Shown piece after piece: positions 16,038-40,449 of a stretch of DNA of 64,000 nucleotides (positions within the stretch are counted from its first letter, which is position 1; each line of letters opens with the position of its first letter). Below the pieces are notes generated by a model. The model had not been told where the DNA came from, made no database searches, and saw only the letters and a program-made list of their open reading frames with translations. A program made the translations under genes and the position numbers. The DNA lies in NCBI RefSeq assembly GCF_000012885.1, contig NC_007498.2:2946001-3010000 (forward strand), read 5' to 3'. Source of the stretch: Syntrophotalea carbinolica DSM 2380 (GTDB taxonomy: Bacteria > Desulfobacterota > Desulfuromonadia > Desulfuromonadales > Syntrophotaleaceae).

Positions 16038-16097
16038 GGCGTCATTTTATCCGGAACCACGCGGCGATGCAAACACCTCTGATCGGGCTGGATGAAA

Positions 16098-16129
16098 AAT
16101 GGGCGGGCTGCAGATGCAGCCCGCCCATT
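16098..16129 (-). terminator. Rho-independent terminator of ilvC
   Basis: Perfect 15-bp stem AATGGGCGGGCTGCA / TGCAGCCCGCCCATT with a 2-nt gap, followed on the minus strand by TTTTCATCC. Confidence 0.85.
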
Positions 16130-16152
16130 GTGTCACATTCGAACGAAAAAGC

Positions 16153-17625
16153 TTAAACGATGGCTTTCATACCCTGCATGGCGGCACGCAGTTCTTCGCC
16201 GACTTCTTCGATCAGATGGCTGCGGATCTCGGCATTGACAGACACCAGGGTGCTGTTATCGACGCTGTTGTCCTTGGCGTCCAGCCCCTTGCCGATAAGA
16301 TCGGTGCCCACCTTTTCCATGAAATCCTGCAGCAGAGGCACGCAGGCATGGGAGAACAGGTAGCAGCCATACTCGGCGGTATCCGAAATAACCCGGTTCA
16401 TCTCATACAGCTTCTTGCGGGCGATGGTATTGGCAATGAGAGGCGTTTCGTGCAGCGACTCGTAGTAGGCGGACTCGGGCTCGATACCGGCGGAAACCAT
16501 GACTTCAAAAGCCAATTCAACGCCGGCCTTGACCATGGCCACCATCAGGATCGCCTTGTCGAAGTATTCCTGCTCGCTGATGTCACCGGCACCTTCGGTT
16601 TGCTCGAAAGCGGTTTTGCCGGTTTCTTCGCGCCAGGTCAGCAGCTTGACATCATCGTTAGCCCAGTCTTCCATCATGGTGCTGGAGAATTCGCCGGACA
16701 GGATGTCGTCCATGTGCTTTTCGAACAGGGGACGCATGATCTCCTTGAGTTCCTCTGCCACCCCGAAAGCCACCAGCTTGGCGGGATTGGAGAGACGGTC
16801 CATCATATTGGTGATGCCGCCGTGCTTGAGAGCCTCGGTAATGGTTTCCCAACCGTACTGGATAAGCTTGACGGCATAAGGTGCGTCGATGCCGTTCTGG
16901 GTCATTTTGTCGAAGCACAGCAGCGCGCCGGCCTGCAGCATGCCGCAGAGGATGGTCTGCTCGCCCATCAGGTCGGATTTGACCTCGGCGACGAAAGACG
17001 ACTCGAGAACCCCGGCACGATCGCCGCCCTGGGCGGAGCACAGCGCCTTGGCGATTTCCAGGCCGTCGCCGTTGGGATCGTTTTCACCGTGCACGGCGAT
17101 CAGGGTCGGCACGCCGAAACCGCGCTTATACTCTTCGCGCACCTCGGAACCGGGGCACTTGGGAGCAACCATGATAACGGTCAGATCCTTGCGAATCTGG
17201 GTACCTTCTTCAACGATATTGAAACCGTGGGCATAGGAAAAGACCGCGCCCTGCTTCATCAACGGCACCACGGTGTTGACCACGTCGGTGTGCTGCTTGT
17301 CGGGAGCGAGGTTCATGACGATATCGGCGGTGGGCAGCATTTCTTCGTAGGTGCCGACGGCAAAGCCGTTTTCCGTCGCGTTGAGATAGGACTGACGTTT
17401 TTCTTCGATAGCCCCTTTGCGCAGGGTGTAGGAGACGTCGAGACCGCTATCGCGCATGTTGAGACCCTGGTTGAGGCCCTGGGCGCCGCAACCGACGATG
17501 ACGATCTTTTTGCCTTTGGCGTATTCGCAACCGTTGGCGAATTCGGAAGCGTCCATAAAACGGCAGGTGCCGAGTTCCTGCAGCTGACGACGAAACGGCA
17601 GCGAGTTGAAATAGTTCTGACCCAT
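16153..17625 (-). CDS. ilvC: Ketol-acid reductoisomerase, class II
   Basis: Converts acetolactate or acetohydroxybutyrate to the dihydroxy acids of branched-chain amino acid synthesis, using NADPH and Mg. The Rossmann motif is [16 protein letters not shown] near residue 37, followed by [12 protein letters not shown]. The 490-aa length, with a duplicated C-terminal helical domain, marks the long class II form typical of enterobacteria; most Desulfuromonadia-like genomes would be expected to carry the short class I form. The start at 17625 has AAGGGAGA upstream. A divergent IlvY-type regulator shares the intergenic region, suggesting inducible control by the substrate as in E. coli. Confidence 0.95.
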
Positions 17626-30783: not shown

Positions 30784-32310
30784 ATGTTCAGTGGTCACAA
30801 CCGTCCGGCAAGCACCGATGCCGAGCGAATCTGGATAGAGAATGTGCGTCCATCCGACTGGACGAATCCCGAACCAGCCCCCCGATATAATCTGGTGGTG
30901 GTCGGCGCCGGTTCCGCCGGTCTGGTTACGGCTGCGGGTGCCGCCGGCCTCGGTGCACGGGTGGCCCTGATCGAAAAACTCAACATGGGCGGTGACTGCC
31001 TTAATTTCGGGTGCGTCCCCTCCAAGGGCTTGATCCGATGCGGGCGTGCCGTTTCCGCGGCCCGCAACGCCCACCGCTTCGGGGCCACAGGTACCGACAA
31101 GGTCAAAGCCGACTTCACCTCGGCCATGGCCTATATGCAGGAAGTCCGTTCCGCCATCAGTCAGCATGATTCGGCCCGACGCTTCCAACAGGAACTGGGT
31201 GTGGATGTTTTTCTGGGGACGGGCACGTTTGTTTCCCATGACACCCTGACGGTCGACGGAAAACCGTTGAGATTCCGCAAAGCCGCCATCTGCACCGGTG
31301 CCAGAGCCTCTGCGCCTCCCATCCCCGGACTGGAAGAAACCGGCTACCTGACCAACGAAACGGTCTTTTCCCTGAACAAACGACCTTCACGACTGGCCAT
31401 CATCGGTGCCGGTCCCATCGGTTGCGAGTTGGCCCAGGCGTTTGCCCGCCTCGGCAGCCAGGTCACTGTTTTGGAGTACGGCAGTGGCGCACTGCCTCGG
31501 GAAGACCGTGACGCTGCCGCCCTGATCGAGCAGGCCATGATCCGTGAAGGGATCACGCTTTACTTCGACTGCCGCACCAAGCAGATCAGCCGGCAGGGCA
31601 ACACCAGAAACATTGACATGGATCTTCCCGACGGCCCGCGGCATATTGCGGTGGACGACATCCTGGTAGCCGCAGGCCGCACCCCCAACGTGACGGGCCT
31701 GGGTCTTGAAAAAGCCGGAGTCGCCTTCGATCCCAAAACCGGGATCAAGGTCGACAGGCGTCTGCGCACCAGCAACCGCCGCATCTTTGCCGCCGGGGAT
31801 GTCTGCTCGCCCTACAAATTCACCCATACGGCCGATGCCATGGCCCGTATGCTGCTGGCCAACGCCCTGTTTCCCGGTCGGCAGTCAACTTCCTCCATGG
31901 TTATCCCCTGGGTAACCTATACCTCTCCGGAAGTGGCTCACGTGGGGCTCTATGAAGAACAAGCCCGGCAAAAGGGCCTTGCCGTCACCACCCTGACCGT
32001 CCCCCTTGCGGATACCGACCGGGGCCTTATCGATGGCGAAACAGCCGGTTTTGCACGGGTTCACCTCAAAAAGAACAGTGACAAGATCCTCGGTGCGACC
32101 ATCGTCGCCGAACACGCCGGCGAAATGATTGGCGAAATGGCGCTGGCCATTTCCGGCGGACTGGGCCTGGGGGCCATCGGCAGGACCATCCACCCCTACC
32201 CGACCCAGGCGGAAATGATGCGCAAACTGGCCGATGCCTACCAGCGCAACCGCTTGACGCCAAGGATCAAGAAACTCCTTAACATCTGGTTTCGCTGGCA
32301 GTGTCGCTGA
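30784..32310 (+). CDS. FAD-dependent pyridine nucleotide-disulfide oxidoreductase (MerA/Lpd-like)
   Basis: A 508-aa flavoprotein. The FAD-binding motif VVVGAGSAGLVTAAGAAG is at residue 37, and the redox disulfide motif GGDCLNFGCVPSKGLIR (CX4C) at about residue 75. The NAD-binding GAGPIGCELAQAFARLG lies in the middle, and the C-terminal dimer domain ends with the His-Pro segment HPYPTQAEMMRKLAD. The N-terminal 35 residues form an extension. It looks closest to mercuric reductase-like or lipoamide dehydrogenase-like proteins, but the vicinal C-terminal Cys pair of MerA is absent (tail LNIWFRWQCR), so Hg reduction is unlikely. Substrate unknown. Confidence 0.85.
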   Translation: MFSGHNRPASTDAERIWIENVRPSDWTNPEPAPRYNLVVVGAGSAGLVTAAGAAGLGARVALIEKLNMGGDCLNFGCVPSKGLIRCGRAVSAARNAHRFGATGTDKVKADFTSAMAYMQEVRSAISQHDSARRFQQELGVDVFLGTGTFVSHDTLTVDGKPLRFRKAAICTGARASAPPIPGLEETGYLTNETVFSLNKRPSRLAIIGAGPIGCELAQAFARLGSQVTVLEYGSGALPREDRDAAALIEQAMIREGITLYFDCRTKQISRQGNTRNIDMDLPDGPRHIAVDDILVAAGRTPNVTGLGLEKAGVAFDPKTGIKVDRRLRTSNRRIFAAGDVCSPYKFTHTADAMARMLLANALFPGRQSTSSMVIPWVTYTSPEVAHVGLYEEQARQKGLAVTTLTVPLADTDRGLIDGETAGFARVHLKKNSDKILGATIVAEHAGEMIGEMALAISGGLGLGAIGRTIHPYPTQAEMMRKLADAYQRNRLTPRIKKLLNIWFRWQCR

Positions 32311-35864: not shown

Positions 35865-36122
35865 ATGCCCATTTACGAATACCAATGCGATGCATGCGGC
35901 TTGATTTTTGAAGCCCGTCAGAAATTTTCCGATGAGCCTTTGAGCCAGTGCCAGAAATGTGGCGGCTCGGTGCAGAAGCTTATTTCCCAATCAGCGTTCA
36001 CCCTCAAAGGGGGAGGCTGGTACCAACAGGGTTACTCGTCCAGCAGCAAACCTGCTGCCTGCAGTTCAGGTAGCCCGGCAGCAAGCTGTGGCGGCTGTCC
36101 CAAGGCAGCCAGCAACGGTTAA
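35865..36122 (+). CDS. FmdB-type zinc-ribbon protein
   Basis: An 84-aa protein whose first 45 residues match the FmdB regulatory zinc ribbon: MPIYEYQCDACGLIFE and CQKCGGSVQKLIS supply the two CxxC pairs. The Ser- and Cys-rich tail (CSSGSPAASCGGCPKA) is low complexity and may bind metal too. CGGAGG precedes the start. Function is not established for most family members; it is followed by its own terminator. Confidence 0.88.
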   Translation: MPIYEYQCDACGLIFEARQKFSDEPLSQCQKCGGSVQKLISQSAFTLKGGGWYQQGYSSSSKPAACSSGSPAASCGGCPKAASNG

Positions 36123-36158: not shown

Positions 36159-36498
36159 CAGTTAAGCGCTTCACGGCACATTTTTACGGTACCCGGCATC
36201 CTGCCCCCAGCACCACTTTTCTCCCTGCGTTTTCCATCACGGCACGGGCTTGCCCGTTCTGCATCGACAACTCGCCACAACCGGGCAAGCGAGCCCTCGC
36301 CATAAAGAAGGTATCCAAGAGTGCTCCGGCCTTTACAAGCCACCATCTTTTCCGTATATTTCGCTAAAATCGGGTCGGTTGTGCAACACGGCTTTCATCC
36401 GACGCCGGTCATCGCCAACGGCTGGCCAAACCAAGCACACAGAAGACGCAACGATTCCCGACAGTCGCAGGGAAACGATGCCGTCTACAGGGGGGCAC

Positions 36499-36885
36499 AT
36501 GTTCTTTCCGGAAGAATTGCTCTACAACGAGGACCATGTCTGGATCGAAGAAGATGGAGAACAAGTCACTATCGGCATCACCGAATCTCTTCAGGATGAT
36601 GTCGAGGAGATCCTATCCATCGAAATGCCGGACGTCGAAACGGAACTTGAACTGGGAGATACCCTGGTGACGATCGAACTGCGCCAGGGGATGCTGGAGA
36701 TCTACGCCCCTCTTTCGGGGGAAATCGTTGAGATCAACAAGGATCTCTCCGACTCACCCGAATGGCTGATGTCTTCGCCCTATGAAGATGGCTGGATCAT
36801 CCGCATGAAATTAACCCGTCCGGAAGAAATAGACGACCTGATGGATGCGGATGATTATACGGAGTTCGTGCAGGGAGACCTATAG
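36499..36885 (+). CDS. GcvH-like lipoyl-domain protein lacking the lipoyl lysine
   Basis: A 128-aa protein of the glycine cleavage H family by fold: NEDHVWIEEDGEQVTIGIT at the start, then LGDTLVTIELRQGMLEIYAP and LSGEIVEINKDLSDSPEWL. In true GcvH the hairpin reads ESVKAxSDIYAP with the lipoylated Lys; here the aligned residues are ELRQGMLEIYAP, so Gln replaces Lys and no lipoylation is possible at that site. The ATG at 36499 has AGGGGGG upstream. There are no gcvT or gcvP genes nearby. It may be a structural, regulatory or repurposed GcvH paralogue; the reaction is unknown. Confidence 0.8.
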   Translation: MFFPEELLYNEDHVWIEEDGEQVTIGITESLQDDVEEILSIEMPDVETELELGDTLVTIELRQGMLEIYAPLSGEIVEINKDLSDSPEWLMSSPYEDGWIIRMKLTRPEEIDDLMDADDYTEFVQGDL

Positions 36886-36927: not shown

Positions 36928-37746
36928 TTACCTTCCGGTTATATTGCGGGATACGCCATTGCCGGAAAGCCTGTATTGAAAATAGGCCATAATGGTAAGC
37001 TGATCCTTGGCATAGGATGAGGGAAGGTTTCCGTAAGACGCGCCGCGATAGACAGCGGCGATCGCTTCCCGATCAAGGGTGGGATACCCGGAGCTTTCCA
37101 GCGGTTCGACCGCATCGACACTGCCATCCTGATTGATGACGATCCTAAGCAGACAGACACCGGACTGGCCGCGTTCGGCTGCCGCGCGGGGATAGTTCCA
37201 GACCTGATAGATATTATCGCGAAAGCGCTTAAAAAAGGATGACAACAGGTCCTTTTCCGTATCGAGCCATACCGCCTCGCCTTCTTCCACATCCTCGCGA
37301 TATTTACGAGCCCATCCCTCCCGCAATCGTTGCTGCGTCGTCTGCGGCAAACCAAGATCGAGAGGGGCGGGCGAAACAGCCCCCGTATCTCCCGGCCGCT
37401 TGCGCTCGACTGGTGCTGCCGCAGGAGGCGGAGCCGCTACCGTCGGTAGCGGTTGACGGTCCTCGGGAGCATCCCCCCTGGGCGCGGTTTCCCGCGGCAC
37501 CACCTGGTCGCGGGGCGCAAGTCTTTTGGCCGGCTTTCGGCGCGGTTGCGTTACAGGCTGTGCGGGCATATCGACTTCGCGCGGCCGTTGCTGTGGCGGT
37601 CGCACTTCCACCACCACGGGTTTCTTGACGGAAGGTGCCACCAGCAGATCATCCGCAGGCAACAGGTACAGCAACAGCGCATGCAACAGCAGAGACAAAA
37701 CGGCGAAGGCAGCCAGAAGAATGTCTTGACGGGAAGAGGGACTCAT
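36928..37746 (-). CDS. TonB family energy-transducing protein
   Basis: A 272-aa protein with the TonB layout: an N-terminal transmembrane helix (ILLAAFAVLSLLLHALLLYLL), a Pro- and Arg-rich periplasmic spacer (about 45-145), and a C-terminal TonB domain from NIYQVWNYPRAAAERGQSG to the YFQYRL end, with the conserved YP and SGYPTLDREA. It couples the proton gradient to outer-membrane receptors. No ExbB or ExbD genes lie beside it. The start at 37746 is chosen for its AAAGGA site; a GTG 18 nt upstream is also in frame. Confidence 0.85.
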   Translation of the reverse strand: MSPSSRQDILLAAFAVLSLLLHALLLYLLPADDLLVAPSVKKPVVVEVRPPQQRPREVDMPAQPVTQPRRKPAKRLAPRDQVVPRETAPRGDAPEDRQPLPTVAAPPPAAAPVERKRPGDTGAVSPAPLDLGLPQTTQQRLREGWARKYREDVEEGEAVWLDTEKDLLSSFFKRFRDNIYQVWNYPRAAAERGQSGVCLLRIVINQDGSVDAVEPLESSGYPTLDREAIAAVYRGASYGNLPSSYAKDQLTIMAYFQYRLSGNGVSRNITGR

Positions 37747-37976
37747 CGTGTCCTTTGATTCCACCTTGGATGCTGTCTGCTTTGATCGCCATTGCGCACT
37801 CGAATTAATCGAAGACCGATTAACCGCAAGTACTTTCGATCCATACCGAAGCTCGACAGTCCCTCAGTGAAATGATTATTTTTTTAAGCCATTATACATG
37901 AACCCCAGCGCTTTTGGCCAGATCAGAATCCCAGCCTTCAAGACATCCGGAAGCTGGACAATAATCCGAAAAGAGG

Positions 37977-38045: not shown

Positions 38046-39047
38046 ATGCATTTAGCCGATCAAATCAAAGCCAAAGCCCGCGAAAACCGCCAAGTTGTCG
38101 TATTGCCCGAAGGCTACGACGACCGTATGATCCAGGCTGCCGGCCCCATCGTTAAAGACAACCTCGCGGACGTTGTGCTGCTTGGCGAGCCCGCTGCCTT
38201 GCAGGCCAAAGCCACGGAACTCGGTGTATCCCTCGAAGGCGTCACCCTGCTCGACCCTAAAAGTGCTCCCCAGCTCGACACCTATGCCGACGAACTGGTC
38301 GAAATCCGGAAGAAAAAAGGGCTGTCCAAAGATGACGCATTGAAACTTCTGACCGCCGATGACAACCTGTTTTTCGCCACCATGATGGTACGTCAAGGTG
38401 ATGCCGGCGGATGTGTTGCCGGCGCCTACAACACCACTGGCAACGTACTGCGCGCTGCGTTCCAGGTCATTGGCCCTGCACCCGGCATGAAAACCGTATC
38501 GTCCTGCTTTATCATGGTAACCAAGACCCCGGAATTCGGCGAAAACGGTGCTCTGATTTTTGCTGACTGCGGCGTCAACCCCAATCCTGACGCAGCTGCC
38601 CTTGCGGAAATCGCCGTTTCATCGGCTCAAAGCTGCAAAAGCTTCCTCGGTGCCGAGGCCCGCGTAGCGATGCTGTCCTTTTCCACCAAAGGCAGCGCAA
38701 AGCATGAAGACCCGGACAAGGTCATTGCGGCCCTTGCAATCGCTAAGGAAAAAGCCCCTGAGCTGCAGATCGATGGCGAGTTGCAGGCCGACGCCGCCCT
38801 GGTACCCGCAGTAGGCAACAGCAAAGCTCCCGGCTCAAACGTCGCCGGCAAAGCCAACACTCTGGTTTTCCCCGATCTCGATGCCGGCAACATTGCTTAC
38901 AAACTTGTTCAGCGTCTGGCCAAAGCCGAAGCTTTCGGACCTATCATTCAGGGACTAGCCAAACCGGTCAACGACCTGTCCCGCGGCTGCTCGGTGGATG
39001 ACATCATCAGCGTTACCGCTATCACTGCGGTTCAAGCCCAAGGCTAA
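38046..39047 (+). CDS. pta: Phosphate acetyltransferase
   Basis: A 333-aa short-form Pta that interconverts acetyl-CoA and acetyl phosphate. Family blocks are [16 protein letters not shown] at the start, [57 protein letters not shown] and the C-terminal [24 protein letters not shown]. The start at 38046 has GAAGGAGG upstream. It is convergent with ackA, with a shared bidirectional terminator; together they form acetate and ATP from acetyl-CoA, the energy-yielding step expected after ethanol or acetaldehyde oxidation in the island at 1-15 kb. Confidence 0.95.
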
Positions 39048-39183: not shown

Positions 39184-40449
39184 TTACTTGCGCTCGTAGT
39201 CCTTGGACTTGAAGCTGTAATCGAAGCTCATGTGGTCGCTGTAGGTGTTTTCCAGGATACCGACCACGTCTTCGGTGAAGACCAGTTCTTCGTCGGTGGG
39301 GATGACAAACACCTTGACCGGGGAATCGGGAGTGGAGATCTCCACTTCGGCTTTCTTGGTGCGGGTCTTGAGGTTGAGTTCCTTGTTGATCTTGATACCC
39401 AGCGCCTCGAGCCCTTCCAGAGCATCCTGACGGATTTCCGCGCCCATTTCACCAACACCGGCGGTAAAGACGATGGCGTCGACCTTGCCGAGAGCAGCCA
39501 TGTAAGCACCGATGTACTTCTTGATGCGATAGGCTTCGATATCGTTGGCCAGCTTGCAACGCTTGTCGCCGGCCTTGACCCCTTCGCCGATATCGCGGCG
39601 GTCGGTGTACTTGCCGGTGATGCCGAGAAGACCGGACTTTTTGTTCAGCAGGCTGTCCATCTCCTTGGCGGTGTAGCCTTCGCGCTCCATGATGAAGGTC
39701 GGGATCGCGGGGTCGATATCGCCGCAACGGGTACCCATAACGGCACCTTCGAGGGGGGTCAGACCCATGCTGGTATCGACGCAGACGCCGCCGCGGATGG
39801 CCGCATGGGAAGCACCGTTACCGATGTGCAGGGTGATGATGTTGCAGTCTTTGGCATCCTTGCCGAGCAGCACGGCGGCACGCTTGGACACGTAGAGGTG
39901 CGAAGTGCCGTGGAAACCGTAACGACGCACGCTGTGCTTTTCGTACCACTCGTAAGGCAGCGGATACATGTACGCTTCCTCGGGCATGGTCTGATGGAAA
40001 GCGGTGTCGAAAATAGCCACATGGGGAACATCGGGCAGAACTTTCTGGGCTGCCACGATGCCCATGATGTTGGGCGGATTGTGCAGAGGAGCCAGGTGCT
40101 GAACGTCCTTGATCCCCTGGAGAACTTCCTCGTCGATCAGAACGGAGCTGGCGAACTTCTCCCCGCCGTGGACAACACGGTGACCAACGGCCGAGATTTC
40201 GCTCATGGACTTAACCACGCCGACCTTCGCGTCGGACAGGGTCTTGATGATCAATTCGATGGCCACGGTGTGATCGGGGCAATCGTGCTCACTTTTGTAG
40301 TCTTCCCGTCCGGGAACCTCGTGAGAAATGAAGGAGTCACCGATGCCGACCCTTTCGACAACACCCTTGGCGATTACTTCACGGCGTTCCCAGCTGTACA
40401 GCTGATATTTTACGGACGAGCTTCCGCAGTTCAAAGCGAGAATATCCAT
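39184..40449 (-). CDS. ackA: Acetate kinase
   Basis: A 421-aa acetokinase that makes ATP and acetate from acetyl phosphate. It starts with MDILALNCGSSSVKY (phosphate loop), and the middle carries HRVVHGGEKF, VAIFDTAFHQTMP and RYGFHGTSHLYV; the nucleotide segment is TLHIGNGASHAAIRGG, followed by DTSMGLTPLEGAVMGTR. All family signatures are intact. AGGAGG lies 12 nt before the start. It is transcribed toward pta, an unusual convergent arrangement since the two are commonly in one operon. Confidence 0.96.
   Translation of the reverse strand: MDILALNCGSSSVKYQLYSWERREVIAKGVVERVGIGDSFISHEVPGREDYKSEHDCPDHTVAIELIIKTLSDAKVGVVKSMSEISAVGHRVVHGGEKFASSVLIDEEVLQGIKDVQHLAPLHNPPNIMGIVAAQKVLPDVPHVAIFDTAFHQTMPEEAYMYPLPYEWYEKHSVRRYGFHGTSHLYVSKRAAVLLGKDAKDCNIITLHIGNGASHAAIRGGVCVDTSMGLTPLEGAVMGTRCGDIDPAIPTFIMEREGYTAKEMDSLLNKKSGLLGITGKYTDRRDIGEGVKAGDKRCKLANDIEAYRIKKYIGAYMAALGKVDAIVFTAGVGEMGAEIRQDALEGLEALGIKINKELNLKTRTKKAEVEISTPDSPVKVFVIPTDEELVFTEDVVGILENTYSDHMSFDYSFKSKDYERK

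Follow-up and report, generated by a model that had tools for sequence, protein, structure and literature searches.

The genome of Syntrophotalea carbinolica DSM 2380 holds a single GcvH gene, and this gene has lost the lysine that carries lipoate in glycine cleavage H-proteins. We found it in the window, the whole 64,000-nucleotide stretch of contig NC_007498.2 that was analysed, at the place where related genomes have a complete glycine cleavage (gcv) operon. The H-protein is known as a carrier, and its function is that of its lipoyl arm. Our favoured reading, to which we give a fair degree of confidence, is that the gene is the leftover of an operon deletion, coding for an H-protein that is dead as a carrier and reused as a putative non-covalent adaptor or regulator. 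The genomic origin of the gene, the lack of the other glycine cleavage genes in this genome and the loss of the lysine throughout the family are directly supported. With its attachment site gone and the rest under selection, and with gcvH outliving its own operon, the protein suggests a role of the H-protein beyond glycine cleavage.

The open reading frame is unbroken and encodes 128 amino acids, in agreement with the preliminary description, which had called the gene intact. It is probably Pcar_2540, judged from the neighbouring locus tags. The product matched the Pfam GCV_H profile (PF01597) at 4e-33 and 114.3 bits, above the gathering score (cut-off 22.2), and passed the NCBIfam subfamily model NF002270 (122.6 vs 117); it stayed just under the cut-off of the equivalog TIGR00527 (111.0 vs 115.85) and far under that of NF045810, GcvH_rel_desulf (43 vs 150). 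Two relatives of the same family fell on either side of the TIGR00527 cut-off, L015 under it (115.6, with a short N-terminus) and L014 over it (122.1). Since the lysine-less proteins of the family still pass the GcvH subfamily model, our results correct the automatic annotation.

The AlphaFold2 model, for which the input was a 47-sequence alignment of the window and locus proteins, reached a pLDDT of 90.7; an earlier model from 10 sequences (pLDDT 68.4) was set aside. Its top solved structure was the E. coli H-protein complexed with T-protein (3a8i_E; Z 22.2, rmsd 1.3, 127 residues aligned), and the nearest solved relatives of the protein were H-proteins. The protein is thus predicted to have the H-protein fold, as had been supposed from the letters. 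A strong ribosome site had been claimed as well; the likely site is G-rich and near-consensus, though so close to the start codon that we do not regard it as especially strong.

Features of the window, with gcvH genes of other genomes in the last two lines. Locus tags of the TonB, pta and acetate kinase genes are those given in the available part of PMC3543383.
Feature	Position	Strand	Basis or remark
Dihydrolipoamide-dehydrogenase-like flavoprotein with GGDCLNFGCVPSK stretch	30784..32310	+	probably the proposed partner of LarG
FmdB-type zinc-ribbon protein; borders the order's ancestral gcv operon on the upstream side	35865..36122	+	profile search, gene order
AGGGGGG, likely ribosome-binding site	36489..36495	+	read from sequence; about 3 nt before ATG
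GcvH homologue without lipoyl lysine, 128 aa, sole GcvH of the genome	36499..36885	+	profile search, predicted structure
Former lipoyl hairpin ELRQGMLEIYAP, residues 60-71	36676..36711	+	alignment
Codon 63, CAG (Gln), at the lipoyl-lysine position	36685..36687	+	sequence, alignment
TonB-like protein (Pcar_2541); borders the ancestral gcv operon on the downstream side	36928..37764	-	profile search, gene order
Phosphate acetyltransferase pta (Pcar_2542), conserved downstream flank	38046..39047	+	profile search, gene order
Acetate kinase (Pcar_2543), conserved downstream flank	39184..40449	-	profile search, gene order
Lysine-less gcvH at a folD-tonB-pta locus of another family, L254 (G086:C120)	16092-16487		seen in one MAG only
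Lysine-keeping orphan gcvH genes L130, L256, L257, L258 and L259 (G125, G127, G100, G102 and G099, in that order)			ancestral locus

The S. carbinolica genome is complete (a single contig of 3,665,893 bp), and profile searches of the whole genome returned one GcvH place (PF01597), no GCV_T and no GDC-P. The remark that no other glycine cleavage genes are nearby therefore holds genome-wide, and the genome paper (PMC3543383), in the part available to us, also gives the system as missing from the organism. The organism belongs to a family of 14 genomes (f1, Syntrophotaleaceae by inference), where GDC-P was above the cut-off in 0/14 genomes (G001 had a sub-threshold match of 22.2 bits) and GCV_T in one. 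That one match, in G007, is incomplete and lies close to the end of a contig (G007:C14:42-380); the genome is 84% complete and otherwise without the system, and the match may be contamination or another aminomethyltransferase. The gcvH gene itself was present in 10 of the 14 genomes and occupied 11 places; G002 has two copies, one of them identical to the G003 copy, hence ten distinct proteins. Three of the genomes without it (G005, G007, G010) are 78-86% complete. The fourth, G001, is 100% complete and has no GcvH, with FmdB and tonB nearly adjoining, so the gene is dispensable in the family. Other lineages, e.g. f7, gave no GcvH match either.

The hairpin of the protein reads E60-L-R-Q63-G-M-L-E-I-Y-A-P, and Q63 lines up without a gap with the lipoyl lysine of GcvH, which upholds the replacement by glutamine given in the preliminary description; no further lysine was found in the hairpin. 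A lipoyl-accepting lysine was missing from all ten distinct f1 proteins, the residue being Gln in four, Asn in four and Arg in two. Gln is the state of the genus and Asn or Arg that of the sister genera: the absence of lysine is the conserved part, while the change to glutamine itself does not extend beyond the genus. We reject a strain-level mutation or a sequencing error, since the loss is common to three genera. Outside f1 the lysine was present at 97 of the 98 GcvH places in the order, at 30/30 places in 15 genomes from other families of the class (Geobacterales by inference), and in all 72 loci L048-L119 from a GTDB contig scan (best 80 of 395, eight of them the family's own). A search of 277 genomes of the class gave scores of 217-225 bits for the f1 proteins and of 163 at most for anything else, so no further clade member was found in those genomes. 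We found no description of a lysine-less GcvH family in the open-access literature.

As far as the alignment tells, a lipoyl group cannot be attached to the protein at the canonical position. A group might still be carried on a different residue or be bound in the former lipoyl cleft, as the overall fold is predicted to be kept, but we consider this very unlikely: there is no cysteine anywhere in the protein, and the sole lysine that is invariant in the family, K104, lies in a different strand of the fold, outside the hairpin, at a site that is mostly Lys or Arg in canonical GcvH.

The substitution rates point to constraint on the lysine-less gene. We obtained dN/dS values of 0.067-0.199 over 13 distinct informative within-genus pairs (Nei-Gojobori); several dS values were near saturation, and the g4 pairs, with dS of 0.21-0.83, gave 0.091-0.199. 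None of the 11 f1 places contained an internal stop, and the ten distinct proteins are all intact, which agrees with the earlier view of a functional gene and not a decayed one. Constraint was laid out differently along the protein in the two groups. The mean entropy of residues 59-66 was 1.60 in the ten lysine-less proteins and 0.09 in random canonical sets of ten drawn from the 98 non-f1 places in the order, and this stretch ranked 2 of 114 windows in variability in the former vs 112 of 114 in the latter; E60 was kept in 7/10 f1 proteins.

Several residues that are nearly universal in canonical GcvH (n=109, one broken order sequence excluded) were replaced in 10/10 f1 proteins: A31 (109/109 canonical) by Leu, G36 (106/109) by Glu, Ala or Gln, F/Y40 (105/109) by Ser, Val or Thr, and S66 (105/109) by a hydrophobic residue, while N91 (109/109) was gone in 9/10. 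New invariant residues have appeared in turn: W89 was found in 10/10 f1 proteins and 0/109 canonical ones, and S86, L90, E110, D113 and G126, each present in 10/10 f1 proteins, are variable or often absent in the canonical set. Glu14 was also lost (Leu in six and Val in four f1 proteins), which is a correlation only. Judged by these sequence comparisons, selection on the lysine-less GcvH is purifying but inverted, with the lipoyl hairpin among the most variable stretches, and the pattern looks like a reassignment of function rather than a relaxation throughout. The gene could instead be a slowly decaying relic without present function, in line with the long stem of the f1 clade (0.54) and the outright loss in G001; the low dN/dS, the 11 places free of stops, the newly invariant sites (e.g. 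W89, D113) and the repeated sparing of gcvH while the operon vanished make this improbable.

Gene order gave the origin of the gene. Malonomonas rubra (L065) has the arrangement FmdB-folD-metV-metF-gcvT-gcvH-gcvPA-gcvPB-tonB-pta, with the lysine kept in GcvH and tonB on the opposite strand. The gcv genes lay downstream of FmdB and folD in all 14 further non-f1 loci of the order that were compared (L184-L197), with a few exceptions in the other genes: L187 and L197 are without metV/metF, tonB and pta are inverted in L192, and no pta was found at the L193 locus. The f1 loci (the window, L040, L041, L045, L046, L198, L199) read FmdB-gcvH-tonB-pta, so that the neighbours of gcvH are the flanks of the gcv operon in the relatives. 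We searched the window and six relatives for remnants of gcvT, gcvPA and gcvPB and found none; the best match (E 0.056) was read as chance. The gene is the operon's own gcvH, still in place, the orthologue left after the loss of gcvT, gcvPA and gcvPB: it is the sole GcvH and it stands at the site of the ancestral operon. It had been described as a paralogue, which we correct here. A functional tie to the act genes or to tonB/pta was not supported, the position of gcvH being inherited from the gcv operon. Locus L045 has an extra putative aminopeptidase gene (PF10023, 6740-7867) between FmdB and gcvH, and broken pieces only were seen at the matching place of L046 (7323-7994).

In the phylogenetic analysis a single branch, with 100/100 support, set the lysine-less f1 proteins apart from the rest; in other sets its support was 99/98 and 100/98. 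In a single tree, with other families of the class added, the f1 clade grouped weakly (90/75) with their lysine-keeping second GcvH, which is linked to accBC. Both stems are long and gene order points the other way, so we put this grouping down to long-branch attraction; the tree by itself does not decide between the two.

Orphan gcvH genes were also found in other lineages. A GDC-P match lay within 3.5 kb at 91 of the 98 non-f1 places, and seven places were without one. One of these (G063) is on a 3.3-kb contig with gcvT adjoining, which indicates an assembly break; the other six (G125, G127, G099, G100, G102, G086) have an orphan gcvH at the ancestral locus, without gcvT, gcvPA or gcvPB there. 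The order is FmdB-folD-metV-metF-gcvH-tonB-pta in G125 and G127 (family f18), FmdB-folD-gcvH-tonB-pta in G099, G100 and G102 (family f9), and folD-gcvH-tonB-pta, up to the contig end, in G086 (f9, one MAG). The orphan gcvH of G102 is identical to L053, a Pelovirga terrestris record. No GCV_T or GDC-P match was obtained in G125. In each of the remaining five genomes a further gcv operon that includes a gcvH lies elsewhere, so that glycine cleavage does not depend on the orphan in five of the six.

The lysine was kept in five of the six orphans, for which a lipoyl-dependent second role is possible. The sixth, that of G086, has Asn instead (hairpin HAANSVADVY), and E60, A31, F40 and N91 are changed too. 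At 4/98 non-f1 places, all of them orphans and representing few independent events, site 14 was not Glu (Val in G125 and G127, Gln in G100 and G102); Glu14 was kept in G086 and G099. By the AU test, a single clade of f1 and G086 is compatible with the data (p 0.393). From taxonomy, and with folD kept in G086, we infer that the lysine was probably lost there independently of the loss in f1.

The loss of gcvT, gcvPA and gcvPB with gcvH spared was therefore seen in four genome groups (f1; G125/G127; G099/G100/G102; G086). As gcvT lies upstream of gcvH and gcvPA/gcvPB downstream, every orphan case needs losses on both sides, and the repeated sparing suggests selection to keep gcvH. The purifying selection, the inverted conservation and the occurrence of gcvH alone at the same locus elsewhere have direct support in these data.

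A function has already been proposed for a protein of this region. The available part of PMC3543383 presents LarG as a 'lipoyl carrier protein', a disulfide electron carrier near act genes and a dihydrolipoamide dehydrogenase. LarG (Aklujkar et al. 2012) is almost certainly our gene, because the genome has only one GcvH, and the window does contain act-like genes from about 44.4 kb as well as the flavoprotein listed above. Nevertheless, a lipoylated cytoplasmic carrier that is reduced by Act and reoxidised by the nearby dihydrolipoamide dehydrogenase is a highly unlikely identity for the product. The residue that is lipoylated in canonical proteins is missing from the hairpin in 10/10 f1 proteins, which contradicts the published lipoyl-LarG proposal, and neither L041 nor L199 showed the flavoprotein gene in the corresponding position. 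The place near pta/ack was inherited from the gcv operon, thus the nearness to the act genes is no evidence of a shared function.

We also considered [FeFe]-hydrogenase maturation. Aminomethyl-lipoyl-H-protein is the source of the bridging ligand and acts with HydF in vitro, according to the available parts of PMC12752695 and PMC11736057, and three [FeFe]-hydrogenases are reported for P. carbinolicus in that of PMC3543383. HydF (TIGR03918) was above the cut-off in 18 of 136 genomes of the order, namely 13/14 f1 genomes and 5/122 others, one of the five non-f1 genes carrying internal stops. These data would fit a lysine-less GcvH that docks HydF (or HydE/HydA) as a scaffold without delivering an aminomethyl group, so that a different donor would supply the bridging ligand. 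We find such a scaffold unlikely, since G001 has HydF and no GcvH at all, 0/6 of the other orphan-gcvH genomes have HydF above the cut-off, the co-occurrence comes from one clade (about one event), and aminomethyl-lipoyl cannot be carried without the lysine. The first two of these observations weaken the idea that gcvH is kept because of HydF. The f1 bacteria are natural cases in which the known lipoyl-H-protein route of maturation is closed, from which an involvement of the lysine-less GcvH does not follow. Having HydF and three hydrogenases (available part of PMC3543383) and no GcvT, GcvP or lipoylatable GcvH, S. carbinolica provides a natural test of the need for aminomethyl-lipoyl-H-protein.

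Returning to the reuse of a carrier-dead H-protein, we propose the following history. The f1 ancestor would have had a normal FmdB-folD-metV-metF-gcvT-gcvH-gcvPA-gcvPB-tonB-pta locus, of which everything between FmdB and tonB save gcvH was presumably deleted, ending glycine cleavage. In the leftover H-protein the lipoyl lysine would then have given way to Q, N or R, with the loss of conserved residues around it as well, while selection may have held the fold and the new invariant residues (L31, S86, W89, L90, E110, D113, G126). The predicted fold, together with these residues, points to a binding protein. It would carry no group and would bind non-covalently to an enzyme, acting as its adaptor or regulator. 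More tentatively, and with the balance almost even, the GcvH of the order may have a second, lipoate-free job, and f1 bacteria may mature their [FeFe]-hydrogenases without lipoyl-H-protein; as the lysine was discarded in both f1 and G086, the second job, if real, needs no lipoate.

The likeliest candidate partners would be enzymes that act on H-protein or lipoyl domains and that the cell still has: the lipoyl synthase AcoS/LipA, the octanoyltransferase LipB, the dihydrolipoamide dehydrogenase and the E2 of acetoin dehydrogenase. The S. carbinolica genome has one LplA/LipB-type gene, and according to the available part of PMC3543383 lipoate comes from LipB and AcoS alone and goes to acetoin dehydrogenase. 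Features by which lipoate enzymes recognise their substrates are not conserved in f1, with E60 in only some of the proteins and a hypervariable hairpin. This counts against LipB or LipA as the partner and suggests that the hairpin has ceased to be recognised by the lipoylating enzymes.

The protein was compared with known GcvH-type systems. It shares the predicted fold of GcvH (PF01597, NF002270/TIGR00527) and is an orthologue by gene order; unlike canonical GcvH, it has no lipoyl lysine, its hairpin is hypervariable and its genome is without GcvT or GcvP. The chlamydial TIGR03077 (not_gcvH) is a GcvH homologue that occurs without the other parts of the glycine cleavage system, and our protein is not a member (68.0 bits vs a cut-off of 144.05). 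GcvH-L of Streptococcus pyogenes (5a35) belongs to a macrodomain-sirtuin operon and is lipoylated; it is GcvH-like, and its fold matched our predicted model with Z 16.1. LbpA of the sHdr sulfur-oxidation system is likewise GcvH-like with a role outside glycine cleavage, but it has a strictly conserved lysine and, except in some archaea, two conserved cysteines (available part of PMC6067878), neither of which is present in our protein.

The second GcvH of other families of the class (L148-L162, Geobacterales by inference) also lies away from the gcv operon and has also lost E14 and F40. It differs in keeping the lysine (15/15) and, where looked at, in its accBC locus. Directly upstream of the second GcvH in L178, L179 and L181 is an accC-like biotin carboxylase gene, with an MqnA-like gene downstream (the next gene in L178 and L181); the Pfam check of this neighbourhood covered L178 only. 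A partial ORF reading gave a similar neighbourhood in L180, L182 and L183. The second GcvH was present in all 15 genomes searched, with EARK (14) or DGRK (1) as the lysine context and E14 changed to V, L, I or F.
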